A stretch of 64,000 bases of DNA. It comes from a virus. Location: positions 91,703-155,702 of the IMG/VR virus record IMGVR_UViG_3300025674_000016; one strand, written 5' to 3'. Each line of letters begins with the position of its first letter. The stretch's first letter is position 1. The notes beneath the pieces were generated by a model. That model had not been told where the DNA came from, searched no databases, and saw only the letters and a list, made by a program, of their open reading frames with translations. This document shows positions 4,827-63,650 of the stretch, one piece after another. The position numbers were made by a program, and so were the translations under genes.

Positions 4827-7790
4827 ATGTCTGTTAAAAAGTTTAAATTTGTCTCTCCCGGCGTATCTGTCGCAGAGATTGATAAAAGTAGATTGGCAAC
4901 TCAAATTTTTAGAAGAGGGCCTATTCTTTTTGGTCGTGCAGAGCGCGGCCCTTCGATGAGGCCAGTGAGGGTTGCTTCTTTCTCTGAGTTCGTTGAAACA
5001 TTTGGGGAGCCGATCCCCGGCGGTAGAGGAGGGGATGTCTGGAGGGATGGTAACTATACTTCCACCACCTATGCCTCCTATGCTGCTCAGGCTTATTTAA
5101 GAAATAATGCTCCTGTTACATTTGTTCGATTGCTGGGGAGTAAGCATGGTGACGTAGATGAAGGTCAAGGCGAAGAGACTCCTGGGTGGGATTCTGGCGC
5201 TCATACTGCCACGGGTGGCGGTGCTTACGGTCTTTTTCTTTTTGATTCTGGCACCATTGGAGAAAGAGTTCCCGGTACTCTAGCCGCTGTCTGGTATACA
5301 AACGATGCTAACACCATTATCACCCTAACTGGTAACTTCGCACATGACAGCGCTAACGCGACTTCTTCTATTGGAGCTTTGGTCCCCTCTGTTGGAGACT
5401 CAAGGGAGTTTAAGGCGGAAATTAGAAACGGAGCAACAGTATCTGAAAAAATAACTTTTAACTTTGACAGAGCTTCTGACAAGTTTATTAGAAAAGTTTT
5501 TAACACAAACCCAACACTAACCAACGGTGCAATGATCGCCTCCAATCAACTTAAAAAATATTGGCTAGGCGAAACCTTTGAGGGTGCATTAGATAAAGTT
5601 GGGACTGGCGCTGGTGGTGTTCTAACCGCCGCCAGCTCTTCTGAGGGCGATACTCACGGTGCTATTCTTGTTTTGAGCAATAACGACACTACCAAGAAGA
5701 GATTTGGAAATCTTAAGCAAGATACAAGTGATTCTAAGAGTGGGTGGGTTATCTGTCAAGATCTAGGAGCACCAGAAAATTATATTGCAGAGAACTCACA
5801 AAAATTATTTAGGTTTATCACAAGAAATTCTGGTGAGTGGGATTCTTCAAACCTAAAAGTTTCCATTCAAGATATCAAGCCTTCGAACAGTGAATTCAAC
5901 CCTTATGGTAGCTTTACTGTGGTGGTTAGAAGCACATCAGATAACGACTATTCGCCTCTAGTTAGAGAAAGATTTGAGAACGTGAATTTAAATCCAAGTT
6001 CTAATAGATATATTTCTAGAGTTATTGGTGATAAGTATGTGCTCTGGGATGAAACAGAAAGAAGGCTAAGAGAATATGGAACTTATGATAATATCTCTAG
6101 CTTTGTTAGAGTGGAAGTGTCAACAGAAGTAGAGGCAGGAGGTGATCCAAGATGGCTTCCTGCTGGCTTCTTTGGCCCACCTAGGTTTAAAAAATTCACA
6201 GTATGCACTGGTTCTGCGCCAATAACATTTGGGGCTTCTTTAACATCGTCTGTAGATCCCAATGCAATGGGGCTCCCAGCCAGCCAGTTAACAGCGCATG
6301 CTCACCTATCATCATCAGCAACAGGGTTCCACCTTGTTCTTTCTAAGAAGCCAAGCGCCTTGGCTGTTGACAACTTCCTTGGAGATATTACTTTTCCCAA
6401 GTTTAATCTTAGAAATTCTAGCGTGGACTCAACTTTAAGAGGCCCCACTACAGCGTATTTTGGAGTTGATACTCGCAGAGGTGCAAATAGCAGGCTCTTT
6501 GATGAAACTTCGATTGATTTGGCGAGACCAAAGCCTCAAGGCGTAGCAAGCCACGACACTGATAGCAATACAGAAAATAGTTTTATCTTTACGCTAGATG
6601 ATCTAAGCGGAAGTAGCGATTTTGGAGACAATACTACAATTATTGATCTAGTTTATGTATCAGGCTCCAGAGCAAGCAACACCTCAGTGACTGCTGTGGG
6701 TCTAAACGGTTCAAAAGCAAGTATCAATGCTTCTTTTACAAGCTTATTGGAGTATGGTTATAACAGATTTACACTACCACTATTTGGTGGCTTTGACGGT
6801 TTCGATGTAACAGAAAGAGAACCCTTAAGAAACTCTTTAATTCAAGATGACGACTCAGACACAACAAACTATGTTGTCAATACCTATAGGCGAGCAATCG
6901 ACATGATCCAAGACGTGGAGAATGTTGATGTTAACTTGGCTGCTGTGCCTGGCTTAACAAATGCAACACTAACATCAAGGCTAATTGATAACTGCGAGCA
7001 GCGCGGGGATGCAATGGCTGTTATTGATGTTGAGGGTGATTATACTCCAATCTATGAAGCTAAATCTGACACCCAAGAAAGAGATAGACTTGGGTCTGTA
7101 AGCACAGCAGTAAGCTCTTTGAAGGCCAGAAACCTCAACACCTCGTATGGTGCGGCGTATTACCCTTGGGTGCTTGTCAGGGATTCTGTTAGCACTGGCC
7201 AGATTATATGGATGCCACCTAGTGTTGTTGCTCTGGGAGTTATCGGAAATAGCGCAAATAGAAGTGAATTATGGTTCGCGCCAGCAGGGTTCAACAGAGG
7301 TGGGCTTACAAACGGAGACTCTGGCTTAACAGTTGTTGGTGTAAGACAAAAACTCTCTGCAAGAGACAGAGACAATCTCTATGAACAACACATCAACCCA
7401 ATCGCTAGCTTCCCTGCGGAGGGCATTGTTATCTTTGGGCAAAAAACCCTTCAAGTAACGCAGTCTGCTCTTGACAGGATCAATGTTAGAAGGTTGATGA
7501 TTTTCCTTAAAAAGGAAATCTCATTCGCAGCCAGCCAGATTCTCTTCGACCAAAACGTCAGAGAAACTTGGTCTAGGTTCACTGGTCAAGTCAAGCCTTT
7601 CCTTGAGAGTGTTAAATCTAGATTTGGTTTGGTTGACTTTAGGCTGGTTTTGGACGAAACCACCACTACCCCCGACCTGATTGATAGAAATACTGTTTAT
7701 GCAAAGGTGTTTATCAAGCCAGCAAGGGCAATTGAATATATTGCACTAGACTTTGTTCTTACGGCAACTGGTGCTTCTTTTGACGAATAA
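4827..7790 (+). CDS. Contractile tail sheath protein, gp18-like
   Basis: A 987-residue protein. The N-terminus has the sheath signature SPGVSVAEID followed by RRGPILFGRAERGP; the C-terminal third has LFDQNVRETWSRF and the final beta segment with YAKVFIKPARAIEYIALDF, typical of gp18. It is about 330 residues longer than T4 gp18 (659), the excess being in the middle (about residues 110-620), which is glycine/serine-rich and probably forms extra outer domains. It is followed by the tube gene as in T4. Confidence 0.93.
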   Translation: MSVKKFKFVSPGVSVAEIDKSRLATQIFRRGPILFGRAERGPSMRPVRVASFSEFVETFGEPIPGGRGGDVWRDGNYTSTTYASYAAQAYLRNNAPVTFVRLLGSKHGDVDEGQGEETPGWDSGAHTATGGGAYGLFLFDSGTIGERVPGTLAAVWYTNDANTIITLTGNFAHDSANATSSIGALVPSVGDSREFKAEIRNGATVSEKITFNFDRASDKFIRKVFNTNPTLTNGAMIASNQLKKYWLGETFEGALDKVGTGAGGVLTAASSSEGDTHGAILVLSNNDTTKKRFGNLKQDTSDSKSGWVICQDLGAPENYIAENSQKLFRFITRNSGEWDSSNLKVSIQDIKPSNSEFNPYGSFTVVVRSTSDNDYSPLVRERFENVNLNPSSNRYISRVIGDKYVLWDETERRLREYGTYDNISSFVRVEVSTEVEAGGDPRWLPAGFFGPPRFKKFTVCTGSAPITFGASLTSSVDPNAMGLPASQLTAHAHLSSSATGFHLVLSKKPSALAVDNFLGDITFPKFNLRNSSVDSTLRGPTTAYFGVDTRRGANSRLFDETSIDLARPKPQGVASHDTDSNTENSFIFTLDDLSGSSDFGDNTTIIDLVYVSGSRASNTSVTAVGLNGSKASINASFTSLLEYGYNRFTLPLFGGFDGFDVTEREPLRNSLIQDDDSDTTNYVVNTYRRAIDMIQDVENVDVNLAAVPGLTNATLTSRLIDNCEQRGDAMAVIDVEGDYTPIYEAKSDTQERDRLGSVSTAVSSLKARNLNTSYGAAYYPWVLVRDSVSTGQIIWMPPSVVALGVIGNSANRSELWFAPAGFNRGGLTNGDSGLTVVGVRQKLSARDRDNLYEQHINPIASFPAEGIVIFGQKTLQVTQSALDRINVRRLMIFLKKEISFAASQILFDQNVRETWSRFTGQVKPFLESVKSRFGLVDFRLVLDETTTTPDLIDRNTVYAKVFIKPARAIEYIALDFVLTATGASFDE

Positions 7791-44506: not shown

Positions 44507-44820
44507 ACAATAAAAAGAAAATAACTTATTATGAACACCCCAAGGTTCATGCTGATCTTAAGATTCGTTGGCAATATGATAGCTTGGGGCAATCTGAGTT
44601 CTTTAGGGTTCTTTGTACTGCCTACCTCAACAAAGATCAAAGGATTCTGGACATACTCAGCGAGTACAAAAAAGAAAACAAGATCCAGAACCAGACCAAA
44701 AGAAATAAAACTCAAAAGCTATACGAAGAGGGCAGAGAAGTAGAATCTAAATTTTCACTAAAAGAAGATGAGATAGAAAGCATCTTCGACTTACTAGAAA
44801 AGGAACATCCAGACTTATGA
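44503..44820 (+). CDS. Small basic protein, unknown
   Basis: 105 residues, ATGA-coupled at both ends. KVHADLKIRWQYDSLGQSEFFRVL could be a ribbon-helix-helix type DNA-binding start; the rest is charged helix. It lies between thioredoxin and a sigma-like protein, so a regulatory role is possible but unproven. Confidence 0.55.
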   Translation: MNNKKKITYYEHPKVHADLKIRWQYDSLGQSEFFRVLCTAYLNKDQRILDILSEYKKENKIQNQTKRNKTQKLYEEGREVESKFSLKEDEIESIFDLLEKEHPDL

Positions 44821-45053
44821 AGTGTTATGATATGTGCAAAGTTACAAACCGCAAGTGCTCCAAGGAAGAGTGCAGAATGTGGATGGACTTTAAAGAAGAT
44901 TTAAATTGTTCAATTATAGCCTCAAATAAAAACCCAGACGGCATGAGCTTAAGGGAAATAGGCGAAAGATTAAAGCTTACATGCACCAGAGTAAAGCAAA
45001 TTCAAGACAAGGCATTAGAAAAACTAAGCGAATCAGTGCGAATCATTAACTGA
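44817..45053 (+). CDS. Small sigma70 region 4-like protein
   Basis: 78 residues. Four cysteines in the first 20 residues (C-x3-C-x6-C-x4-C) could bind zinc. The C-terminal half, MSLREIGERLKLTCTRVKQI followed by ALEKL, is the region 4 helix-turn-helix that reads -35 boxes in sigma70 factors. No region 2 is present, so it may act as co-regulator rather than full sigma. It lies directly ahead of an AACTATTTAT motif and the acidic repeat protein, so a part in late transcription is possible. Confidence 0.72.
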   Translation: MKCYDMCKVTNRKCSKEECRMWMDFKEDLNCSIIASNKNPDGMSLREIGERLKLTCTRVKQIQDKALEKLSESVRIIN

Positions 45054-54772: not shown

Positions 54773-55389
54773 ACAAGTGCAGAGCAGGGATTTTGCTTTA
54801 CAAACAAGAGAATGACGGAATAAAAGTGCTTCTAGGCTTTCCTGGTGGACCAAAATATAAAGACAACGGCTTCTGGCATATCCCAAAAGGCAAAGTCGAA
54901 GAAGGCGAAGATTTATTTTCTGCTGCAAAGAGAGAGTTTAATGAAGAAACTGGAATTACCCCAGCAGGCGAGTTTACAGAATTAGGAAGTTGCCCTTACA
55001 AAGGCGATACTTGTTATATCTGGGGGATGAAGGGTGATTGGAATCCAGAAGACGGTTTCACAAGCAATACTGTTGTAATGCAGTGGCCTCCCGGCACGGG
55101 TAAAATGCATGAGTTTGGAGAATTGTCTGATTTAAGATTCTTTAACATTGAAGATGCAAAGAAGATTATCATGCCAAGACAGAAAGTATTTCTTTCCAAT
55201 TTGGAAAATAAGCTGAGCCCAGCCAGGCTTAACGAAGTCGAGCCGTTCCAGAGAGCCGTAAAAAAAAAGCATAGAAAAATGAAGTTTAGACTTATTGGCA
55301 TGGGCGGAAACAAGAAAAGAGAGCGTGGACATAAAAAACCTTCCTTTAAGAGATCTAAGAGTGCCCCACCAGGCTTCGGCGGCTCCTGA
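54769..55389 (+). CDS. Nudix hydrolase
   Basis: 206 residues, GTG start. The Nudix box fits G-x5-E-x7-R-E-F-N-E-E-T-G (GKVEEGEDLFSAAKREFNEE then TG) at about 44-64; FWHIPKGK precedes it. A basic tail of about 40 residues (KKKHRKMKFRL, KRERGHKKPSFKRSK) is unusual and may bind nucleic acid. Likely substrate: a nucleoside polyphosphate or capped RNA. Confidence 0.85.
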   Translation: MNKCRAGILLYKQENDGIKVLLGFPGGPKYKDNGFWHIPKGKVEEGEDLFSAAKREFNEETGITPAGEFTELGSCPYKGDTCYIWGMKGDWNPEDGFTSNTVVMQWPPGTGKMHEFGELSDLRFFNIEDAKKIIMPRQKVFLSNLENKLSPARLNEVEPFQRAVKKKHRKMKFRLIGMGGNKKRERGHKKPSFKRSKSAPPGFGGS

Positions 55390-55399
55390 CTTCACCCCT

Positions 55400-55485
55400 T
55401 TGACAAGCCAATCCAGAAAATTATTCAACTTTTTTCACCTCACCAAACAAAACCTCCTTGACTATTAAAAGGGCGTGAATAATTT
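55400..55485 (+). promoter_or_regulatory. Sigma70-type promoter(s) for the Hsp20 gene
   Basis: Two boxes: TTGACA at 55400 with TATTCA 16 bases later, and TTGACT at 55458 with TAATTT 16 bases later at 55480. Both are upstream of the Hsp20 gene. The second overlaps a GTGAATAA, the opening of the cassette found in the next 8 kb. Confidence 0.5.
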
Positions 55486-55529: not shown

Positions 55530-55889
55530 ATGCTTTACAAAAGATTTAACAACCAAACAGTATTTGATGAGTTATTTGGAACTGGTTTTAACAAGAAGAC
55601 TAGTGTTAGAGAGTTAAAAGATAGATTCCAAATAAAAGTAGTTGCACCTGGGCTAAGAAAGAAAGACTTTAAGATTGATTTTGAAGATGGTCTGATCAAG
55701 ATTGAATTTAAAAGAGACGCAGATAGAGAAGGTCTGTTTACAAAAGAAAAGTTCTTTAAGTCTTGGATATTGCCAGAAGGAACCGAGCCTGAGCATATCT
55801 CAGCATCATATGATGCAGGTGTTCTTTCAATTTCTATTGACAAAACAGAAGCACACAAGCCCAAGACACAAAATATCCCAATCCAGTGA
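55530..55889 (+). CDS. Hsp20 / alpha-crystallin small heat-shock protein
   Basis: 119 residues. Alpha-crystallin domain from about 23 to 105 (VRELKDRFQIKVVAPGLRKK, SASYDAGVLSISIDK) and a C-terminal IPI anchor motif in NIPIQ. ATP-independent holdase for unfolded proteins. Its stop TGA overlaps the first copy of the TGAATAAAC cassette. Confidence 0.9.
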   Translation: MLYKRFNNQTVFDELFGTGFNKKTSVRELKDRFQIKVVAPGLRKKDFKIDFEDGLIKIEFKRDADREGLFTKEKFFKSWILPEGTEPEHISASYDAGVLSISIDKTEAHKPKTQNIPIQ

Positions 55890-55936
55890 ATAAACCCTGG
55901 CCCTGCTCTGTCTAAGGGACGTAGGAGGGCAACAAG
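55886..55936 (+). repeat. Intergenic cassette, copy 1
   Basis: TGAATAAAC, then CCTGC and GTAGG (with one G-U pair) enclosing TCTGTCTAAGGGAC, then a GGAGG site. It holds the Hsp20 stop and ends at the next start codon. Confidence 0.8.
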
Positions 55937-56167
55937 ATGTTCAGCAAAGGTCAGCTCGTCAAGTATCGTGTAGATAGAAAATGGAGCTTCCCAACATTCC
56001 ATACTAAAAAGAATGAAGCCTGGAAGTTTGAATGCATTGGCGTTCTCTTAGGTGAAAAGCTTCTTACAAACAAAAACCTCAATTCTTATTCAGTCTGCAC
56101 AGTTTACTGGAGCGACATGAAAATAAGAAAACACTTCTTAATTGAACTGGACCCTATCAATGAATAA
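55937..56167 (+). CDS. Small SH3-like protein, array member 1
   Basis: 76 residues: FSKGQLVKYRV, ECIGVLLGE, VCTVYWSD, ELDPINE. The pattern G-x-L-V ... G-V-L/V ... V-Y-W ... L-x-P-I-N is shared by the next three genes. The PINE codons contain the ATG of the next gene. Confidence 0.75.
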   Translation: MFSKGQLVKYRVDRKWSFPTFHTKKNEAWKFECIGVLLGEKLLTNKNLNSYSVCTVYWSDMKIRKHFLIELDPINE

Positions 56168-56378
56168 GCGTGAATTTGAAAAAGGCGACCTTGTAAGGAT
56201 ACCTCGTCATATTGCGCAGAATGTTTACCTCACTCGTGATGAAGACACAAAATATTTCCAATTTGGTGTTGTTATTAGAACTATCCCCTCTCCCGTCTCT
56301 ATGACCGCCGAGGTATTTTGGCCACAATTGAAGAAATCTAGTTTTTACTTCTTTCAGCATCTCGTGAGGATTAAATGA
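56160..56378 (+). CDS. Small SH3-like protein, array member 2
   Basis: 72 residues from ATG 56160: FEKGDLVRIPR, QFGVVIRT, AEVFWPQ, LVRIK. Same family as its neighbours; starts within the last codons of member 1. Confidence 0.75.
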   Translation: MNKREFEKGDLVRIPRHIAQNVYLTRDEDTKYFQFGVVIRTIPSPVSMTAEVFWPQLKKSSFYFFQHLVRIK

Positions 56379-56593
56379 GAAAGCATAAATTTAAAAAAGG
56401 TGATCTTGTAAGAGTCGGCCAGTTGTACGGAGGGGCTATTTTTAAACAACCCCTCGAAAGTGATGTTGGGATCGTGGTTAATACCGCTCCCCATCCACGC
56501 TGGCCACATCTGATATCTGTATACTGGTCTATTTTGCAAAAAGAAGTAGAACTTCAGAGAGTGTATCTGGAGCCCATCAATGAAAAAGCATAG
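56375..56593 (+). CDS. Small SH3-like protein, array member 3
   Basis: 72 residues: FKKGDLVRVGQ, DVGIVVNT, ISVYWSILQ, YLEPINEKA. Starts by ATGA overlap; the same PINE-coding junction leads into member 4. Confidence 0.75.
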   Translation: MRKHKFKKGDLVRVGQLYGGAIFKQPLESDVGIVVNTAPHPRWPHLISVYWSILQKEVELQRVYLEPINEKA

Positions 56594-56810
56594 TTTTAAA
56601 GAGGGTGATCTTGTAGGAATCCATCCTTCGCATAGGGATTCTATTTTTATAGGACTCCAAGATGATATTGGGGTTGTAGTTGATTCTGAGCCTTGGGGAG
56701 GGAGAAATCGTACTTTGTTGCGTATACACTGGGTTGTGCGACAAACAGAGACGCTTATGTCTGGCAACTATTTATGCCCTCTTGCAAAGGAAGAAGGTCA
56801 TGCATCTTAA
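56580..56810 (+). CDS. Small SH3-like protein, array member 4
   Basis: 76 residues: FKEGDLVGIHP, DIGVVVDSEP, LLRIHWVVRQ, YLCPLAKEE. Clear sister of member 3. Confidence 0.75.
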   Translation: MKKHSFKEGDLVGIHPSHRDSIFIGLQDDIGVVVDSEPWGGRNRTLLRIHWVVRQTETLMSGNYLCPLAKEEGHAS

Positions 56811-57015
56811 AAAAGGAACCTTAGTAAGAATAAGTGAGTATGGCAAGTCAAGACTGACCAAGTACGGGACTCTAAAAAATGTGTTAGAAAAGCCTGATCA
56901 AATCGGCGTTGTTATGTCCACAAAAAAGAATGGCTTTTGGCATAGAGTCTTTTGGGTAGAAACACAAAAAGAAGAGAACATGTATAACGGATTTATAGAG
57001 AGGGTTGAAACATGA
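56800..57015 (+). CDS. Small SH3-like protein, array member 5
   Basis: 71 residues from ATG 56800: LKKGTLVRISEYG, QIGVVMSTKK, RVFWVETQKE, FIERVET. More diverged, same core pattern. ATGA overlap to the next gene. Confidence 0.7.
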   Translation: MHLKKGTLVRISEYGKSRLTKYGTLKNVLEKPDQIGVVMSTKKNGFWHRVFWVETQKEENMYNGFIERVET

Positions 57016-57257
57016 AATATATTATATATCAACAAAGGGGTGAAGAAAAGGTTGCCCTAACCTTCCCAGGCACCAAGGTACAAGCAGAAAATACATTTAA
57101 TAGAATGTCAAGACTTGGGATTCAGGACATAATTCTTGAAAAGCAGAATAAAGAAAAAACAAAGAAACAAAAAGAAGTAGAGACTTTAAGAAAGAAAGCA
57201 AAGAGGGACTTCCAACGCTACCTCAACGAAAAAAGTGTGAATAACCTTGACGACTAG
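57012..57257 (+). CDS. Small basic protein, unknown
   Basis: 81 residues with a strongly basic C-terminal helix (KEKTKKQKEVETLRKKAKRDF). The N-terminal half is mixed strand and helix (YIIYQQRGEEKVALTFPG). Its last codons lie inside cassette copy 2. Confidence 0.6.
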   Translation: MKYIIYQQRGEEKVALTFPGTKVQAENTFNRMSRLGIQDIILEKQNKEKTKKQKEVETLRKKAKRDFQRYLNEKSVNNLDD

Positions 57258-57297
57258 CCTGTCTAAGGGTTGAACGAGGCAAACAACGGAGGAGACG
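57237..57297 (+). repeat. Intergenic cassette, copy 2
   Basis: GTGAATAACC, CCTGTCTAAGGGT and ACAACGGAGGA, ending at the start codon of the next gene. The stem is weak in this copy, and part of it encodes the C-terminus of the previous protein. Confidence 0.75.
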
Positions 57298-57582
57298 ATG
57301 ACTTTCTATATTATTCAAGATAGAATCAGCGGAGATTATTTAACTGACCCTTCCAAAGGAGAATGGCAGTTCTTTGAATGGGAAGGTTATAATCTTGTGA
57401 CTTGTGAGATTGAAGAATGCTCTGGACTCTTTTTGACAATCGAAGATGCAATTGAGGAGCTTGAAAATCTTCAAGAGCAAAAAGAATTAAGGATAGATTC
57501 CCAGCAAGAAGATCTAAGAGTTCTCAGAATAGAGCCTGAGACAAACTACCGATGGTTTAAGGAGGATATCAATGAAGATTGA
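57298..57582 (+). CDS. Small acidic protein, unknown
   Basis: 94 residues, GGAGGA ribosome-binding site. FYIIQDRISGDYLTDPSKG, then an acidic helix with EDAIEELENLQEQKELR. No family recognised. Starts cassette unit 2. Confidence 0.62.
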   Translation: MTFYIIQDRISGDYLTDPSKGEWQFFEWEGYNLVTCEIEECSGLFLTIEDAIEELENLQEQKELRIDSQQEDLRVLRIEPETNYRWFKEDINED

Positions 57583-57784
57583 AAATGGGGACGAGTTGGA
57601 CTTGGAAGGCAAATATTGCTGGATTACTGTTGACAGTATATCAATCTTGATTTCCAAGAAGGATGAAGGTGTCTCAGTTTCTCTCTACCCGCTTGATGGT
57701 GAGAGTGAAGAAAGTCTGGCAGAGACTTGGCTAACATATGCGGAGGCAGAGTGCAATGAGCGATTATGGCCTGAAGAAGTTTAA
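57572..57784 (+). CDS. Small acidic protein, unknown
   Basis: 70 residues, overlapping its neighbours by 11 and 29 bases. Beta-type N-terminal half (KYCWITVDSISILISKKD) and an acidic end. No family recognised. Confidence 0.55.
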   Translation: MKIENGDELDLEGKYCWITVDSISILISKKDEGVSVSLYPLDGESEESLAETWLTYAEAECNERLWPEEV

Positions 57785-58130
57785 AACATTTGCAAAAGCA
57801 AACAGGCTGCGACTTGAGAGGTCTGAGGATGGCTTACCTATTGTCGCTGCCCGTGGCAAAAAGTTCCAGGGTTGGCACCTATATGAAGGTTTTGGGGATG
57901 ATTTCGTCGCTCTGTATATAACCAGGGATACACCCGCGAAACTAAAACACTCAGTTCGTTTTGTTAAAAAACTGGGCCTTACCCTCATACAAGAGGGAGA
58001 TCTGGAGGCGGTGTTCAAAGTTCCATATAATCAACTCTGGAGAGTAGCAAAGGAACTTAAAATGGTCAAGAAGTCGCCATCAAATCAAAACTTGTCTGGC
58101 TTAGCTCAGTACAGGGAAGCCAATATATAG
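57756..58130 (+). CDS. Small basic protein, unknown
   Basis: 124 residues from ATG 57756 (GGAGG upstream). GLKKFKTFAKANRLRLERSEDG, then FVALYITRDTPAKL and FVKKLGLTLIQEGDLEAVF. Looks like a compact alpha/beta domain; no family recognised. Confidence 0.6.
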   Translation: MSDYGLKKFKTFAKANRLRLERSEDGLPIVAARGKKFQGWHLYEGFGDDFVALYITRDTPAKLKHSVRFVKKLGLTLIQEGDLEAVFKVPYNQLWRVAKELKMVKKSPSNQNLSGLAQYREANI

Positions 58131-58299
58131 AGTAAAGTTAAGAGGTTGGGTTTATTATTGCGACTCATTGTCTATAATGAGCGTTCCTTCCATATAGGGT
58201 ATCATACTTTATTATTTTACATGATACCTGGAGGGAGATTAAAAGTAGGCTAGCATGGGACTCACTGCGAAAACTAGTCCTACCCAATCTCACTTTCCC
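58131..58299 (+). other. Non-coding stretch with two strong hairpins
   Basis: No gene. GGTATCAT at 58198-58205 and ATGATACC at 58221-58228 form a perfect 8 bp stem; further on GGCTAG and CTAGTCC can pair. The 19-base element at 58164 is shared with 63413. May be an untranslated RNA or an old tRNA remnant. Confidence 0.5.
58164..58182 (+). repeat. CTCATTGYCTATAATGAGC element, copy A
   Basis: An inverted repeat CTCATT/AATGAG enclosing TATAAT. Same 19 bases with one change at 63413-63431. No matching -35 box. Confidence 0.6.
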
Positions 58300-58349
58300 T
58301 GAATAAAACCGGAAGCTAGACTGTCTAAGGAACACAACGGGAGGCTGAC
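58300..58349 (+). repeat. Intergenic cassette, copy 3
   Basis: TGAATAAAAC, GACTGTCTAAGGAACACAAC, GGGAGG, directly before the start of the next gene. The stem arms are not complementary in this copy. Confidence 0.75.
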
Positions 58350-58619
58350 ATGACAACAAGACAAGAGGCAAGCAAGATGGCTCACATCCACAACCTGTCG
58401 AGAGATAAAAAAATTAATGGCAAGTCTTTGATCCACGCCCTGAACCAGGCTTTCAAGCGTCACGGTATCATGTGGCAGGAACCCAACAGCGTATTCAAGG
58501 GAGATATTGTTGAAGAACTCTTTTCAAGCATGGACTTTTCTTCAAGAGAAAACCCAACGCTTTCTATCGAAGAGTTTTTCGATATTGTAGCAGAAGACCT
58601 GCAAGACTATGTGGAGTGA
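58350..58619 (+). CDS. Small phage protein, unknown
   Basis: 89 residues, GGGAGG upstream. Mostly helical (LIHALNQAFKRHGIMW, EEFFDIVAEDLQDYVE). Ends 4 bases before the start of the methyltransferase-like gene. No family recognised. Confidence 0.6.
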   Translation: MTTRQEASKMAHIHNLSRDKKINGKSLIHALNQAFKRHGIMWQEPNSVFKGDIVEELFSSMDFSSRENPTLSIEEFFDIVAEDLQDYVE

Positions 58620-58623
58620 GAAA

Positions 58624-59283
58624 ATGAAAGTTCTTATTGCTTGTGAGGAAAGCCAAGAAGTCACAAAAGCTTTCCGAAGCTTGGGAATAGAGGCATACTC
58701 ATGTGATGTCCAGCCTTGTTCGGGTGGACACCCTGAGTGGCATATCCAGGGCTGTGCCCTGGAGCAAGCCTATAGTGGCGAGTATAGCCTGATGATTGGG
58801 CACCCGCCTTGTACCTTCCTTTCTAAAGCTGGTGCTCGTTGGATGTTTCCAAAGGGCGAGCTTAGTACAGAGAGGTATGAGAAGGCCAAGAAAGCAAAAG
58901 AATTTTTTATGAAACTGATGGAAGCTCCAATCGACCACATCGCACTAGAGAACCCAGTGCCTCTAAAGGTTGTGGAGTTGCCCCAGTTCACACAGGCAAT
59001 TCAGCCTTACCAGTTCGGGCACCCTTTCTCGAAAAAGACCTTGCTCTGGTTGAAGGGGTTGCCGCCCCTGGAGCCGACCAACATTGTAGAGAGACAAGGA
59101 ACTTATCTTCCTTCTAACACAGGCGGAGCCAAGAGGGGTTTATCAAGCGATCAAGGGGTTAGAAAAGCCCAAGGGTCTAAACTAAAACAACATAGAAGTA
59201 AAACATTTTCTGGTATTGCTGAAGCGATGGCAGATCAGTGGTCGAGATTTTTGCTGAATAAACCAGCAGCCTCAACTGTCTAA
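58624..59283 (+). CDS. DNA cytosine methyltransferase-like phage protein
   Basis: 219 residues from ATG 58624. KVLIACEESQEVTKAFRSLG, YSCDVQPCSGGHPEWHIQGC, MIGHPPCTFLSKAGARWMFP and IALENPVP resemble motif I, IV (PPC) and VI (ENP) of a compact methyltransferase fold common in phages. The usual target-recognition domain is absent, so activity is uncertain. The last nine codons lie inside cassette copy 4. Confidence 0.72.
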   Translation: MKVLIACEESQEVTKAFRSLGIEAYSCDVQPCSGGHPEWHIQGCALEQAYSGEYSLMIGHPPCTFLSKAGARWMFPKGELSTERYEKAKKAKEFFMKLMEAPIDHIALENPVPLKVVELPQFTQAIQPYQFGHPFSKKTLLWLKGLPPLEPTNIVERQGTYLPSNTGGAKRGLSSDQGVRKAQGSKLKQHRSKTFSGIAEAMADQWSRFLLNKPAASTV

Positions 59284-59310
59284 GGGGTGAGGGCAACAAT
59301 GGAGGGCAAA
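59255..59310 (+). repeat. Intergenic cassette, copy 4
   Basis: TGAATAAACC, CCTCA and TGAGG enclosing ACTGTCTAAGGGG, then CAATGGAGGG. It carries the end of the upstream coding region (stop TAA inside CTGTCTAA). Confidence 0.82.
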
Positions 59311-59697
59311 ATGGGAATCGAGGTTACACTAGACATCACAGATAGTTTGCAGGTTCAAGAATTAATGGAGATCTTGGATGAAAAACAACTCCTTAAAAAT
59401 ATTTGTTTCAATCAGATGACCTTTGAAAGATGTTCTTTCTCCAATGCTACTTTTGAAGAGTCGGACTTTGACTGCGCTTCCTTTAAAGGTGCAATTTTTG
59501 AGTTTGCTTATATTGAGGCTCCCGACTTCGGCAACGCCCTATTCAAGGGTGGGGCCTGGGATTCAGCACACTTTATGGATGTTGAGTTTCAAGACTGCCA
59601 TTTCACAGATACCGACCCGCCCAATAAAAAAGTTGTTATTGACTTGACAAGGGCGAAGGATGACGAGACTTACATCGACTTGACAAAAAGTGAATAA
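59311..59697 (+). CDS. Pentapeptide-repeat protein 1
   Basis: 128 residues from ATG 59311, chosen by analogy with the other cassette units (GGAGGG six bases upstream). About ten A(D/N/S)F-type pentapeptides (CSFSNATFEESDFDCASFKG) in 40-100, then an unusual tail KKVVIDLTRAKDDE. Such right-handed quadrilateral beta-helices can mimic DNA. Confidence 0.75.
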   Translation: MGIEVTLDITDSLQVQELMEILDEKQLLKNICFNQMTFERCSFSNATFEESDFDCASFKGAIFEFAYIEAPDFGNALFKGGAWDSAHFMDVEFQDCHFTDTDPPNKKVVIDLTRAKDDETYIDLTKSE

Positions 59698-59746
59698 ACC
59701 AGTTACCTCAACTGTCTAAGGTGTGAGGACAGCAACGGAGGACAAT
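59691..59746 (+). repeat. Intergenic cassette, copy 5
   Basis: TGAATAAACC, CCTCA and TGAGG enclosing ACTGTCTAAGGTG, then AACGGAGGA. The stop TAA of the previous gene lies in GAATAA. Confidence 0.85.
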
Positions 59747-60007
59747 ATGAAGATCGAAGAAGAAAAGACTTGGACAATCACTTTTTCTAAGGCTGATATC
59801 AACGGCGTGTTGGCGTTCTTCATTAAAGAGGGGCTCCTTCGCGGCGCAGACCTCAGTGGAGCCGACCTTCAAGGAGCCAATTTGGAGGACGCCGACCTCA
59901 CTGGCGCCAACTTCTCAAGCGCCAACCTCACTGGCGCGAGCTTGGAGCACGCCAACTTGGAGAACGCAGACTTCACAGGGGCGCTACTCGATGGAAGCAA
60001 GTTTTGA
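59747..60007 (+). CDS. Pentapeptide-repeat protein 2
   Basis: 86 residues: [18 protein letters not shown], then about ten perfect A(D/N)L-type pentapeptides ([19 protein letters not shown]) to the end. It has the same 25-residue start as protein 3. The short length would give about two to three coils. Confidence 0.8.
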
Positions 60008-60026
60008 TTGATGATTTATGAGACAT

Positions 60027-60081
60027 GATTCCGAAAATACTCCTTAAAAAATAAACACCATTATTTTTCACCTTCGGAATC
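60027..60081 (+). terminator. Long hairpin ahead of tRNA-Arg
   Basis: GATTCCGAA at 60027-60035 and TTCGGAATC at 60073-60081 pair perfectly, and an inner AAAAATAA/TTATTTTT stem closes the loop. No U-tract follows, so it may be a terminator or an RNA-processing site for the tRNA transcript. Confidence 0.5.
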
Positions 60082-60110
60082 ACCCTGACCACTTGGGATA
60101 AAGTGGCTTT

Positions 60111-60184
60111 GCACCCATAGCTCAATCGGATAGAGCACCGGCCTTCTAAGCCGTAGGTTCCAGGTTCGAGTCCTGGTGGGTGTG
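60111..60184 (+). tRNA. tRNA-Arg (anticodon TCT)
   Basis: Cloverleaf with loop CTTCTAA; acceptor GCACCCA/TGGGTGT; T-arm CCAGG TTCGAGT CCTGG. One C-U mismatch at the end of the anticodon stem. CCA is not encoded. Confidence 0.9.
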
Positions 60185-60213
60185 CTGGTTGTGAGACAAC
60201 AACGGAGGATGAG

Positions 60214-60543
60214 ATGAAAGTCGAAGAAAAAAGAATGTGGACAATTACATTTACCACTGACGAAGTGCAGGAGGTTATCAATCTCCTTGTTGAGGAGAAC
60301 CTCTTCAGAGGCGTAGACCTAAGTCGCGCAAATCTCTTTGAGGCAAACCTTCATGGCGCAAACCTCAGTTGCGCAATTCTCAGTTGCGCAAACCTCACTG
60401 GCGCAGGTCTAAGCGCCGCAGACCTCACCAGCGCAGACCTCCGTGAGGCAAACCTCACCAACGCAAAGCTCACAGACGCCGATATAGAAGAATCGGCTCT
60501 GCGACAAGCAAACATTTGTGAATGCGATCCAAGCGATGTCTAG
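60214..60543 (+). CDS. Pentapeptide-repeat protein 3
   Basis: 109 residues, GGAGGA upstream. MKVEEKRMWTITFTTDEV is the same start as protein 2, followed by about fourteen A(N/D)L pentapeptides. The repeats here keep a C-A-(I/N)-L variant. Duplicated from protein 2, with tRNA-Arg inserted or retained between them. Confidence 0.8.
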   Translation: MKVEEKRMWTITFTTDEVQEVINLLVEENLFRGVDLSRANLFEANLHGANLSCAILSCANLTGAGLSAADLTSADLREANLTNAKLTDADIEESALRQANICECDPSDV

Positions 60544-60562
60544 GAACACAATAGGAGACGCC
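60537..60562 (+). repeat. Intergenic cassette, copy 6 (short)
   Basis: Only the 3' half is kept: TGTCTAGGAACACAATAGGAGA, very close to copy 3. It overlaps the end of the pentapeptide gene and precedes uvdE. Confidence 0.6.
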
Positions 60563-61462
60563 ATGAAACTAGGCTATGCCTGCATCAATACAGAGTTGAC
60601 AGAAAGAGGTGTCTCTTCAAACAGAGGCATGATCAAGCGAACCTTTCAGGCCAAGGGCGTTAACTACGCATCAGAGATCGCCCTTGCAAACGTGAGGGCA
60701 CTGAAGGAAATTATTCAGTGGAATGCAGATAACGACATTCATGTATACAGAATGTCAAGCCTTTTGTTTCCTTGGATGTCCGAGTATGAGATTCAAGACC
60801 TCCCAGATATTGATCTCATCAAGACTACCCTGCTGGCCTGCGGCAAACTTGCCAGACAACACGCCCAGCGCCTCAGTTTTCACCCAGGACCGTACAACGT
60901 CCTGTGCAGTCCCAAAGATAATGTCGTAGATAAAACAATAAAAGAACTAAATCAACACAGCGAGATCATGGACTTGATGGGCCTGCCACGCTCGCCATAT
61001 GCCAAGATAAATATTCACTTGGGTGGCGCATACGGCGACCACGCAGGTTCAATGGCGCGGTTCTGCACCAATTTCCAGCGCCTTGACGAAGGCACCAGGG
61101 CTCGCCTCACCGTTGAGAATGACGACAAGCCCTCTATGTATTCCACTAAGATGCTGTATGAAGGTGTCCATAAGGTAATTGGAACACCAATTGTCTTCGA
61201 CTCGCACCATTTCAGTCTCGGCCCACAAGACCAGACATACGAAGAAGCTTTCTATCTTGCTCGCAAGACTTGGGAAGGCACTGGAGTCAAGCAGATTTGC
61301 CATCATTCTAACTCTAGGCGCAAATATGACGACCCAAAGGCCAAGCCTGTCGCACATAGCGACCTTATTCACGAGAGATTCGAGAACTTCGGAGAAGATA
61401 TTGATCTTGTCTTGGAGGCAAAGAAAAAAGAATTAGCGATCAAACACTATCCAAAAAGCTGA
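60563..61462 (+). CDS. uvdE: UV damage endonuclease UvdE
   Basis: 299 residues from ATG 60563. MKLGYACINTELTERG is the UVDE start; further on VYRMSSLLFPWMSEYEIQ, LSFHPGPYNVL, KINIHLGGAYGDH, LTVENDDK and IVFDSHHF, giving the metal-binding His/Glu/Asp of the TIM barrel. Nicks DNA 5' of UV photoproducts. GGAGA ribosome-binding site. Confidence 0.92.
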   Translation: MKLGYACINTELTERGVSSNRGMIKRTFQAKGVNYASEIALANVRALKEIIQWNADNDIHVYRMSSLLFPWMSEYEIQDLPDIDLIKTTLLACGKLARQHAQRLSFHPGPYNVLCSPKDNVVDKTIKELNQHSEIMDLMGLPRSPYAKINIHLGGAYGDHAGSMARFCTNFQRLDEGTRARLTVENDDKPSMYSTKMLYEGVHKVIGTPIVFDSHHFSLGPQDQTYEEAFYLARKTWEGTGVKQICHHSNSRRKYDDPKAKPVAHSDLIHERFENFGEDIDLVLEAKKKELAIKHYPKS

Positions 61463-61517
61463 ATAAATCGGCAGCCTGCCCTGTCTAAGGTACGAGGCAG
61501 CAACAACGGAGGAAACA
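61460..61517 (+). repeat. Intergenic cassette, copy 7
   Basis: TGAATAAATC, GCCT and AGGC enclosing the CCTGTCTAAGG core, then ACAACGGAGGA. The TGA is the uvdE stop codon. Confidence 0.82.
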
Positions 61518-61763
61518 ATGCGACTCAAACTTGGTGATCTCGTAGAACTCAACTACGCAGGGAAAGGTACTCAATGGCTTTATCAAGCAAAAGGAAAGAT
61601 TGGGGTTTTAACAGAGATGTGTGACAGGCAGCTTTATAAAGAAGGCGCTGCTTATATTTCTTGGATTGATGTTCCCCCTCCTGAATATTGGGGATACCTC
61701 AATCTCAACAAAGTGGCTATTCCACTCTACTGCCTCAAGAAAGTAAGGAGAAAGAAGAAATGA
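61518..61763 (+). CDS. Small SH3-like protein
   Basis: 81 residues: LKLGDLVELNYAG, KIGVLTEMC, AYISWIDVPPP and a basic end. Same G-D-L-V ... G-V-L pattern as the 55.9 kb array. Confidence 0.65.
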   Translation: MRLKLGDLVELNYAGKGTQWLYQAKGKIGVLTEMCDRQLYKEGAAYISWIDVPPPEYWGYLNLNKVAIPLYCLKKVRRKKK

Positions 61764-61984
61764 AAGTAAAGAATCTAAAGCCTGGGCAGATGTTTTTGCG
61801 TGGCCAACAACTATTTCTTAAACTAGATATTGAAGATCCCAGGTTTAGAGATTATTTAACCCTAAACTATGAGATGTGCGAGCCCACGTTTGATATCTCA
61901 ACTGGGGTGTTCCACCCCTTCTTTTCAGAAGAAGAAGTAATTCCTGTGTCCACGGGTATTGAGATCACAAGGATGGGAGCATGA
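61760..61984 (+). CDS. Small phage protein, unknown
   Basis: 74 residues from an ATGA overlap. MKVKNLKPGQMFLRGQQLFL, then a C-terminal half with FSEEEVIPVSTGIEI. Beta-type; could be a diverged SH3-like member, not certain. Confidence 0.55.
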   Translation: MKVKNLKPGQMFLRGQQLFLKLDIEDPRFRDYLTLNYEMCEPTFDISTGVFHPFFSEEEVIPVSTGIEITRMGA

Positions 61985-61999
61985 TTTTTTGAGAAAGTG

Positions 62000-62036
62000 T
62001 GAATAAACCTCTCGGCTGAACTGTCTAAGAGGTGAT
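62000..62036 (+). repeat. Intergenic cassette, copy 8 (before tRNA-Thr)
   Basis: TGAATAAACC, ACTGTCTAAGAGG, leading straight into the tRNA gene with no ribosome-binding site. It shows that the cassette also serves RNA genes. Confidence 0.75.
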
Positions 62037-62108
62037 GCTAGCGTAGCTCAACGGTAGAGCAACTGCCTTGTAAGCAGTAGGTTATGGGTTCAAATCCCTT
62101 CGCTAGCT
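62037..62108 (+). tRNA. tRNA-Thr (anticodon TGT)
   Basis: Full cloverleaf, acceptor GCTAGCG/CGCTAGC, anticodon loop CTTGTAA, T-arm ATGGG TTCAAAT CCCTT. CCA is not encoded. Confidence 0.93.
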
Positions 62109-62113
62109 TATCA

Positions 62114-62186
62114 GGGGAATTAGCTCAGTTGGTAGAGCACCGCCTTTGCACGGCGGGTGTCATCGGTTCGAGTCCGATATTCTCCA
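62114..62186 (+). tRNA. tRNA-Ala (anticodon TGC)
   Basis: Acceptor GGGGAAT/ATTCTCC (with one G-U), anticodon loop TTTGCAC in stem CCGCC/GGCGG, T-arm ATCGG TTCGAGT CCGAT. No CCA encoded. Five bases after tRNA-Thr. Confidence 0.94.
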
Positions 62187-62210
62187 TTCTTGGCCAAGAT
62201 TCGTTTTTTG

Positions 62211-62271
62211 TGAATAAACACACCACCTCACCTGTCTAAGGAGTGAGGGCAACACAACAGAGGAGTTAGAA
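62211..62271 (+). repeat. Intergenic cassette, copy 9
   Basis: TGAATAAACA, CCTCAC and GTGAGG enclosing CTGTCTAAGGA, then ACAGAGGAG before the next start. Confidence 0.85.
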
Positions 62272-62508
62272 ATGTCTGAAAAAACTCTTAACCTTATTCG
62301 TGAAAACCAAGTTGTTAACTTTGTTGCAAGCAGGCGAGGACGCAAGGGCGGTAAGATTCAGGCCAATACCTTTGAAGAAGTTGCTGCCCAGGCAGCAGCA
62401 AAAGGCTGGACTGGAGATCTCGTGGTATCAAAGATTTTTGTTTCTAATACAAAGTCCACGCCCACGATTTCCAGTGAAGAATCTGGGGTCGCAGTTGCAG
62501 AAATGTGA
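62272..62508 (+). CDS. Small basic protein, unknown
   Basis: 78 residues: VVNFVASRRGRKGGKIQANT and EEVAAQAAAKGWTG. Its stop TGA opens the next cassette. No family recognised. Confidence 0.6.
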   Translation: MSEKTLNLIRENQVVNFVASRRGRKGGKIQANTFEEVAAQAAAKGWTGDLVVSKIFVSNTKSTPTISSEESGVAVAEM

Positions 62509-62559
62509 ATAAGCACACTTCCACCCCCGTTAGGGCGTGAAACAACAAAGGAAGATAAC
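62506..62559 (+). repeat. Intergenic cassette, copy 10 (divergent loop)
   Basis: TGAATAAGC, a CAC ... GTG stem around CCCCGTTAGGGC, then ACAACAAAGGAAG. The CTGTCTAAGG core is replaced, but position and flanks are kept. Confidence 0.6.
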
Positions 62560-62823
62560 ATGAAACAAAAGCTTTATCTAGTTACTGCTAGTTGTTGGGG
62601 CCACCCGTTCCCTGGGGACGGGGACTGGATTGAGTGTTTTGAGACTCGTGAAGAGGCTCAAGACTTCATTGACAGGGCGAAAACCGATGCAGAGGAGTCC
62701 AATGAGTATAATTGGGCCAAATACTATTTCAAAGATTTTGGCCACCCGAAGGATGTGGCGTACATCATAGACCTTAAACAATGGATTGAAGGAATAAACC
62801 CCCAGCCTCAATCGTTATATTAG
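62560..62823 (+). CDS. Small phage protein, unknown
   Basis: 87 residues, AAGGAAG ribosome-binding site. KLYLVTASCWGHPFPGDGDW, then FETREEAQDFIDRAK (a common small alpha/beta phage fold) and a Trp/Pro-rich end. Function unknown. Confidence 0.6.
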   Translation: MKQKLYLVTASCWGHPFPGDGDWIECFETREEAQDFIDRAKTDAEESNEYNWAKYYFKDFGHPKDVAYIIDLKQWIEGINPQPQSLY

Positions 62824-62855
62824 CGAACGAGGGGCTGGCAAGCAAAAGAAAATGG

Positions 62856-62901
62856 TGAATAAAACACCAGCCTCTCCTGTCTAAGGGATGAGGCTGGCAG
62901 A
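62856..62901 (+). repeat. Intergenic cassette, copy 11 (before tRNA-Leu)
   Basis: TGAATAAAAC, CCAGCCTC and GAGGCTGG (perfect 8 bp) enclosing TCCTGTCTAAGGGAT, the best stem of the set. It leads directly to the tRNA, without a GGAGG. Confidence 0.88.
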
Positions 62902-62985
62902 GCATCAGTGGCGGAAACGGTAGACGCGCTGGGTTTAGGTTCCAGTGCCCATTTGGGCATGGGGGTTCGAGTCCCCCCTGATGCA
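62902..62985 (+). tRNA. tRNA-Leu (anticodon TAG)
   Basis: Class II tRNA with long variable arm (GCCCATTTGGGC), acceptor GCATCAG/CTGATGC, anticodon loop TTTAGGT, T-arm GGGGG TTCGAGT CCCCC. Confidence 0.94.
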
Positions 62986-63230
62986 TGACGCGCCCCCTGA
63001 CAAGGGCTAGTAGGGGTGGTCCCTCTATGATTGAACTGGACTAGTCATCCAGAATAAAAACTCCTCCTCGGATGAGGCGGGTCGTCAACAGCCCGTTAGT
63101 AACGACAAGCGAAGGTAGTAAGAGAGGTTGGGGGTAGGCCCCTGGCCGACAACGGGAAACCCGAAAGGGAGTCTCCTTCGCCAAAACACTTAAATATAAG
63201 TGTGCCGTGCAGCGTTACTGTTGACCGTTC
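62986..63230 (+). ncRNA. Candidate structured RNA between tRNA genes
   Basis: 245 bases without a convincing reading frame but with consecutive hairpins: GGCTAGT/ACTAGTC, CCTC/GAGG following AGAATAAAA (a cassette-like start), GTCGT/ACGAC, GGGG/CCCC, CGGG/CCCG. More GC-rich than its surroundings and co-located with tRNAs. No known RNA family recognised. Confidence 0.45.
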
Positions 63231-63304
63231 GCATCCATAGCTCAGTTGGTCAGAGCCACCCGCTCATAACGGGTTGGTCCTCGGTTCGAGTCCGAGAGGG
63301 TCCA
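63231..63304 (+). tRNA. tRNA with anticodon CAT (Met, or Ile if lysidine-modified)
   Basis: D-arm, anticodon arm ACCCG/CGGGT with loop CTCATAA, and T-arm CTCGG TTCGAGT CCGAG are sound. The acceptor GCATCCA/AGGGTCC has a C-C at pair 2-71 and A-A at 7-66, unusual for a working tRNA. Confidence 0.8.
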
Positions 63305-63324
63305 TAGACTTTAAATAATAGTAT

Positions 63325-63408
63325 GCCGTGGTGGTGGAATCGGTAGACACAGGAGACTTAAAATCTCCCGTCCGTATGGACGTGCGGGTTCGACTCCCGC
63401 TCGCGGTA
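63325..63408 (+). tRNA. tRNA-Leu (anticodon TAA)
   Basis: Class II tRNA with variable arm GTCCGTATGGAC, anticodon loop CTTAAAA in stem GGAGA/TCTCC, T-arm GCGGG TTCGACT CCCGC. Confidence 0.93.
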
Positions 63409-63512
63409 TTATCTCATTGCCTATAATGAGCTTTAATGAAAGTAGGCTAGTACCAGTCTTGTATTAAAAGAGGCGACGGCCCATTCAAGGCCCACCCGTG
63501 CTCATAGACTTT
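63409..63512 (+). other. Non-coding spacer with the 19-base shared element
   Basis: No gene. CTCATTGCCTATAATGAGC at 63413-63431 repeats the element at 58164, and AAAGTAGGCTAG follows in both places. Probably a regulatory or RNA-processing region between tRNAs. Confidence 0.5.
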
Positions 63513-63587
63513 CTGCTTGTAGCTCAACCAGGTTAGAGCACTGGCCTTATAAGCCAGAGGTTGTGGGTTCGATCCCCACCAGGCAGA
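63513..63587 (+). tRNA. tRNA-Ile (anticodon TAT)
   Basis: Acceptor CTGCTTG/CAGGCAG, anticodon loop CTTATAA in stem CTGGC/GCCAG, T-arm GTGGG TTCGATC CCCAC. Reads the rare AUA codon. Confidence 0.92.
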
Positions 63588-63592
63588 TTTCT

Positions 63593-63650
63593 TGAATAAA
63601 CCAACGACTTGTGCTGTCCAAGGTACGAGACGGCAACAACGGAGGACAAA
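63593..63650 (+). repeat. Intergenic cassette, copy 12
   Basis: TGAATAAACC, CTTGT and ACGAG (one G-U) enclosing GCTGTCCAAGGT, then ACAACGGAGGACAAA before a GTG start. One base change in the loop core. Confidence 0.83.

Follow-up and report, generated by a model that had tools for sequence, protein, structure and literature searches.

The window considered here is a 64,000-nt stretch of viral DNA, bases 91703-155702 of a 155.7-kb virus record (IMGVR_UViG_3300025674_000016; the record and its phage are referred to here as G000). Because the major head protein resembles gp23 of phage T4 (phrog_138) and has Microcystis phage Mel-JY01 and Rhodothermus phage RM378 as its nearest named relatives, we assign the phage to the Far-T4 group; it also encodes a DnaE-type polymerase, a phage GroEL and an Hsp20. 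Small accessory genes and seven tRNAs occupy the final 8.5 kb of the record, and the last 8 kb contain ten good copies of a cassette, TGAATAA-N16-GTCTAA, all on the plus strand (Table 1). We propose, with a probability of roughly 0.7, that every cassette forms a complete promoter of bacterial type, belonging to a class other than sigma70 and read by a sigma factor like those of the extracytoplasmic-function (ECF) type, and that the copies together would form an array resembling the promoter-early stem-loop (PeSL) cassettes of T4-type phages.

Table 1. Cassettes (with predicted -35 and -10 boxes), degenerate copies and adjoining tRNA genes; positions are those of the window.
Feature	Position	Strand	Boxes, stem and neighbourhood
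Cassette 1	55887-55930	+	-35 TGAATAA 55887-55893, -10 GTCTAA 55910-55915; stem CCTGC/GTAGG; heads gene 55937
Cassette 2	57238-57281	+	-35 57238-57244, -10 57261-57266; no good stem; heads gene 57298
Cassette 3	58300-58343	+	-35 58300-58306, -10 58323-58328; no good stem; heads gene 58350 and methyltransferase gene 58609
Cassette 4	59255-59298	+	-35 59255-59261, -10 59278-59283; stem CCTCA/TGAGG; heads open reading frame from ~59311
Cassette 5	59691-59734	+	-35 59691-59697, -10 59714-59719; stem CCTCA/TGAGG; heads pentapeptide-like open reading frame 59748
Cassette 6	61460-61503	+	-35 61460-61466, -10 61483-61488; stem GCAGCCT/AGGCAGC with one mismatch; heads gene 61518 (KLGDLV family)
Cassette 7	62000-62036	+	-35 62000-62006, -10 62023-62028; leads directly into tRNA-Thr 62037-62108
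Cassette 8	62211-62254	+	-35 62211-62217, -10 62234-62239; stem CCTCAC/GTGAGG; heads gene 62272
Cassette 9	62856-62901	+	-35 62856-62862, -10 62879-62884; strongest stem, CCAGCCTC/GAGGCTGG; leads into tRNA-Leu 62902-62985
Cassette 10	63593-63636	+	-35 63593-63599, -10 variant GTCCAA 63616-63621; stem CTTGT/ACGAG; heads gene ~63652
Degenerate copy TGAATAAG...CCGTTAGGGC	62506-62559	+	before gene 62560; -10 box lost; read directly
Remnant GAATAAACCCCCAGCCTCAA with hairpin CCAGCCTC/GAGGGGCTGG	62792-62841	+	no -10 box; E 0.17 in covariance-model search
tRNA-Thr(tgt)	62037-62108	+	immediately 3' of cassette 7
tRNA-Leu(tag)	62902-62985	+	immediately 3' of cassette 9

A full cassette consists of TGAATAA, the conserved box CTGTCTAAGG and usually a GGAGG site. 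Matches to TGAATAA-N14-CTGTCTAAGG with up to three mismatches are expected 0.25 times by chance, against the ten copies found. In all ten, the distance from the start of TGAATAA is exactly 21 nt to the start of CTGTCTAAGG and 23 nt to that of GTCTAA, and their gap-free alignment has sixteen invariant columns, made up of TGAATAA, T18 in the spacer, CTGTC and AAG. The exact word TGAATAAAC is found six times, the invariant word being TGAATAA. A sequence-only reading of this DNA had counted twelve copies of a regulatory cassette before accessory genes and tRNAs; the repeat is real, and ten copies are good, those at 62506 and 62792 being degenerate. The remaining 147 kb of the record yielded no further good copy and only one weak minus-strand look-alike, and a sequence-only covariance-model search recovered the ten copies, together with some from the related phages G018, G026 and G027, and no further good copy in G000. 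The look-alike (TGAATAA-N16-GTCAAA, window 55387-55427, minus strand, E 0.011) is antisense to gene 54769 and may reflect chance or an antisense promoter.

All ten copies are on the coding strand at the heads of short operons, at a nearly constant 44 to 61 nt before the starts. The cassette had been described as preceding nearly every unit, which goes too far: the genes at 56142-57012, 57572, 57738, 58609 and 61762 lack one of their own, and the same is true of five of the seven tRNAs. As the same reading had recognized, two copies (62000 and 62856) run straight into tRNA genes with no ribosome-binding site. Since cassettes precede tRNA or transfer-messenger RNA (tmRNA) genes in three phages (G000; G018, before a tRNA-Leu and a tmRNA; and G027, before a tRNA-Arg), translation is not their shared purpose. 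Between them, the two boxes put a stop codon in every reading frame (TGA, TAA and TAA, as the sequence shows), and at several sites the gene upstream terminates inside the cassette; a cassette can thus follow any gene.

The same word pair surfaced in locus L243 in a blind search of fetched relatives for repeated word pairs at a fixed distance. Scanning with the pattern gave about 34 copies in G018 (IMGVR_UViG_3300009080_000017, locus L380), six in G026, six in G027 (three with one mismatch), 10 to 11 in G042 and about five in L230/G044. Allowing no more than one mismatch in either box, irrespective of its position, we collected 66 copies from five phage records including G000, about 56 of them outside it. 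Exact box pairs numbered 4 to 20 per record, against an expectation of 0 to 0.05. The boxes are separated by 22 or 23 nt, measured to GTCTAA (21 nt in one copy), corresponding to spacers of 16 or 17 bp, and a reversed control pattern gave zero matches in the loci scanned. The exact G000 version of the pattern had no match in IMG/VR, and seventeen major capsid protein relatives, scanned with up to three mismatches, gave one isolated, chance-like match.

Variation between copies follows a clear pattern. The second box departs from GTCTAA 17 times in the 66 copies, always at position 4 or 5; its GTC is invariant (66/66), its final A never varies, and the base before GTC is C in all 56 copies outside G000 and T in all ten within it. 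Locus L230 adds the variants GTCTGA and GTCAAA, which are also -10 variants of sigma-E promoters. The first box is TGAATAA in 63 of 66 copies and TGAACAA once.

The position taken by the cassettes is held in relatives by promoters of a familiar kind. Accessory genes and tRNAs there carry TTGACA-N16/17-TACATT in L227, TTGACA with TGATAC in L223, CTTGAC...TATACT in G008, CTTGAC...TGATAT in L277 and TTGACAAATAA with an AT-rich -10 in G013, and L256, a neighbor of G000 in a GroEL tree, has TTGAC...TAnnnT before the same kinds of genes. TTGACA lies a median of 57 to 59 nt from the start codon in four of the five relatives tested (L227, L223, L247 and L277), and TGAATAA a median of 57 nt in G000 and 60 nt in G042. 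This agreement places TGAATAA at -35 and GTCTAA at -10, and because TTGACA-N17-TAnnnT holds the same position in relatives, the conserved loop seen in the cassettes is best read as a -10 box. We infer that transcription starts at the cassettes, from a promoter consisting of a -35 TGAATAA(A), a 16- or 17-bp spacer and a -10 (C/T)GTCTAA. The expected start, some 7 nt downstream of the -10 box, would be followed by a ribosome-binding site in the case of genes or by the tRNA itself; the 5' end of the tRNA-Thr transcript is predicted to lie only a few bases from that of the mature tRNA. The earlier proposal that TGAATAAAC is a promoter survives insofar as the cassette likely contains one; TGAATAAAC alone in that role is unsupported, GTCTAA being best read as the -10 box.

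Two other identities for the repeat were dropped. A late promoter at TGAATAAAC was rejected, as the late-type genes of G000 show CTATTTA instead; this motif stands upstream of many virion and replication genes (for example, before window positions 4827 and 7841) and may itself be a late promoter. An integron attC site (GTCTAAC fits RYYYAAC) was set aside since G000 has GTCTAAG at this point and the genes behind the elements carry ribosome-binding sites; an integrase was not searched for.

Sigma70 would call for TTGACA, TATAAT and an A at -11, and these are not what the cassettes contain, their boxes being TGAATAA and GTCTAA with GTC unchanged throughout. Invariance of GTC in the -10 core is a hallmark of ECF sigma factors, whose promoters have AAC at -35 and CGT at -10 (PMC8103513), and the CGT(C) core is the part of that signature that the cassettes carry. 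The -10 core CGTC suggests an ECF-type sigma as the reader, most likely the host's because no ECF sigma was recognized in the phage; a host ECF sigma is our simplest guess. Several observations weigh against the proposal of an ECF-like promoter. The -35 AAC shared by many ECF promoters is missing at the matching distance, hence our term “ECF-like” rather than ECF, and G000 reads TGTC, not CGTC. Profile searches found no Sigma70_r2 or r4_2 domain in G000, and a strict exact scan of GTDB genomes for the G000 version returned three single chance-like hits and no host regulon. First-box distances in G018 (63.5 nt) and G027 (71 nt) are longer than the 57 to 59 nt of most sigma70 relatives, although L174 (71.5 nt) matches them. 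Finally, the above-chance matching of hairpin arms in G000 and G018, described below, is not explained by a pure promoter.

A possible but less likely variant of the promoter proposal retains the same geometry and replaces the host ECF sigma by a factor that the phage itself encodes; this would be either a small, divergent sigma or an activator together with a region-4-like protein. A 78-aa open reading frame (window 44817-45053, plus strand) matches Sigma-70 region 4 (Sigma70_r4) above the Pfam cutoff (32.8 bits) and could encode a small transcription factor. The cassette phages are not one clade in the GroEL tree, in which well-supported branches force at least two changes, so the trait switches; GroEL history may differ from that of the phage, and G026 is not represented by a GroEL. 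However, the same region-4 profile has matches in G042, G043 and G008, and because G043 and G008 are sigma70-class relatives, the 78-aa protein does not explain the promoter switch. The profiles used detected no full phage sigma.

The sequence-only reading had also described stems whose arms change together around the box. A CCTCA/TGAGG helix is present in three copies and different stems are present in four more; in hairpin-bearing copies the stem closes round the -10 box, leaving loops of about 8 to 13 nt. In about three copies (57238, 58300 and 62000) the box is not flanked by a good stem; the copy at 62000 is able to form a different one, ACCTCT/AGAGGT. In a fixed register, the CCTCA/TGAGG helix pairs in 60% of cells, covariation in the ten-copy alignment does not exceed that of shuffles (0.080 versus 0.074), and RNAalifold gives no consensus structure for that alignment. 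In a free register, the claim fares better: the arms of G000 copies pair better with their own partners than with swapped ones (P values of 0.0012 and 0.0024, and 0.015 by folding energy), but this signal is gone once similar copies are collapsed to six (P = 0.20). In related phages, where covariation had been expected as well, the outcome is split. Arms match in G018 (P = 0.0001 with 34 copies and 5e-5 with 23 dissimilar copies), in which some copies have long perfect stems (35455 and 8141), and weakly in G026 (P = 0.09), but not above chance in G027 (P = 0.46) or G042 (P = 0.71), while both boxes persist in all of them. We regard matched arms as real in G018, probable in G000 and not general. 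The hairpin is a lineage-specific add-on with its 5' arm inside the promoter spacer. In some lineages, including G000, an inverted repeat of variable sequence would have been added round the -10 box; it is dispensable for retention of the cassette and may act on read-through RNA or supercoiled DNA.

These results bear on the suggestion, made from the sequence alone, that the hairpin is a 5' untranslated region or processing element. On that view, transcription would begin no later than TGAATAAAC, and the RNA would have at its 5' end a hairpin whose conserved loop, CUGUCUAAGG, stabilizes the RNA, binds a protein or is cut. The preference of arms for their own partners in G000 and G018, the long perfect G018 stems and the location of the box in the loop speak for such a leader. 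We nevertheless consider it improbable: neither a consensus fold nor fixed-register covariation is seen, G027 and G042 keep both boxes without arm matching, the G000 signal does not outlast the collapsing of similar copies, and sigma70-type promoters stand at the same place in relatives. Among Rfam 15 covariance models, only tRNAs scored above the gathering score, and no known structured RNA matches the cassette. The predicted start is 3' of the spacer that holds the 5' arm, so the hairpin would be absent from the transcript of the predicted promoter.

We give similarly low odds to an elaborated form of the promoter proposal, in which the exchangeable block would be under a stress-type (ECF) sigma, with repeated switching to and from sigma70 promoters, and in which a variable DNA hairpin enclosing the -10 box would help promoter opening in some lineages. 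The odds are slightly lower still for an N4-like idea, also a promoter, in which supercoiling extrudes the hairpin and presents the -10 box single stranded, the stem being functional in G000 and G018. The closing of the stem round the -10 box, with arms that vary yet match, accords with this idea; several functional-looking copies and two whole phages, however, have no stem, and single-stranded DNA folds of the G000 copies are mostly unremarkable (z < -2 only at 55887, 62000 and 62856). A selfish or recombinogenic DNA repeat, spread by duplication and with no regulatory role of its own, is very unlikely, for although it would suit the gene-free tandem copies in G018 (921-1173) and the near-identical pair 59255/59691 (82% over 67 nt), it does not fit the coding-strand orientation and the nearly constant distance from starts in G000, the conservation of boxes against diverged spacers or the ordinary promoters found at this place in relatives.

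Some arrangements bear on modularity. On the minus strand of the G018 locus L380, the tandem cassettes at 921-1173, some about 60 nt apart, have no genes in between. Elsewhere in G018, a gene plus cassette is apparently duplicated (14475/14100). Within the window, the pentapeptide paralogues 59748 and 60214 are alike (78% over 58 nt) in a leader that starts at the 3' arm and includes the ribosome-binding site. Before 60214 (window 60111-60217, plus strand), a tRNA-Arg takes the place of the promoter half, and the leader TGTGAGACAACAACGGAGG is kept. The tandem run, the apparent duplicate and the tRNA-Arg replacement are consistent with exchange at the cassette and are not proof of it.

Other features of the accessory block and its surroundings were noted. 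Small paralogous genes of about 75 aa each, at window 55937-57010 (plus strand) and 61518, begin with KGDLV or LGDLV; this family recurs in the accessory blocks of Far-T4 relatives, with, for example, about 21 copies of its coding start in G008. A repeated AAATCACCGACTTTCA in G008, tried as another cassette, was rejected because it is the coding start of a KVGDLV protein family. The 245-nt noncoding stretch between tRNA-Leu and tRNA-Met (window 62986-63230, plus strand) has strong base pairing, with a z score of only -1.45 against shuffles, and has no Rfam match. The phage encodes a tmRNA (plus strand, 18798-19101 of L008, a stretch of G000) with the tag DESQFEYAMAA, and tmRNAs are present in G008 and G018, too. 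Hairpins CTCATTGTCTATAATGAG, CTCATTGCCTATAATGAG and CTCATTGTCTATAACGAG occur at window 58164-58181 and 63413-63430 and at record base ~18680 (in L008), each followed by a AGTAGGCTAG-like sequence and close to tRNA, cassette or tmRNA genes; they are possibly small-RNA promoters. A fold z score, given for the hairpin at 58164-58181 alone, is -2.8 for 58155-58299.

Far-T4 phages are widespread but uncultivated. A survey of the group did not detect the T4 core transcription-regulation genes and considered that transcription patterns may differ, and the word promoter is absent from it (PMC4360716). A defined promoter class would mark the modules of the accessory region and predict start sites, a regulated gene set and control of the block by a single sigma or other factor; phages with the same kinds of genes under sigma70 and under the alternative class offer a natural comparison.

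Among known systems, the hairpin promoters of the phage N4 virion RNA polymerase likewise combine a promoter with an inverted repeat, but N4-like promoters have a 4- to 5-nt stem and a 3-nt loop (PMC3715699), unlike the loops of about 8 to 13 nt and the many stemless copies here. With ECF promoters, such as those of the Escherichia coli sigma-E class, the cassettes share two boxes, a 16- to 17-bp spacer and the -10 core CGTC/GTCTAA, and they differ in having TGAATAA at -35 in place of GAAC/AAC (PMC8103513). They resemble the sigma70-type early promoters of Far-T4 phages (TTGACA-N17-TAnnnT) in place, distance to the start codon and the kinds of genes and tRNAs served, and they differ in both boxes, the -10 lacking the A that sigma70 needs at -11. 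PeSL cassettes, reportedly described by Arbiol in 2010 and Comeau in 2014, are said to occur repeatedly among the accessory genes of T4-related phages, in plastic regions, as composite signals in which a host sigma70-type early promoter stands beside a terminator stem-loop, and reportedly have been proposed as exchange points. They are cited in PMC4503421, and the parallel drawn with T4-type cassettes in the sequence-only reading is a sound one, in that a repeated, predicted promoter again lies between accessory genes in plastic regions. Unlike in PeSLs, the boxes here are not those of sigma70, the inverted repeat straddles the -10 box, and no terminator is consistently found upstream, where T-runs are not preceded by a consistent stem. 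The array would resemble PeSLs in arrangement and differ from them in promoter class, supplying each exchangeable accessory gene or short operon with its own promoter; this could account for the way in which these viruses insert and control exchangeable genes.

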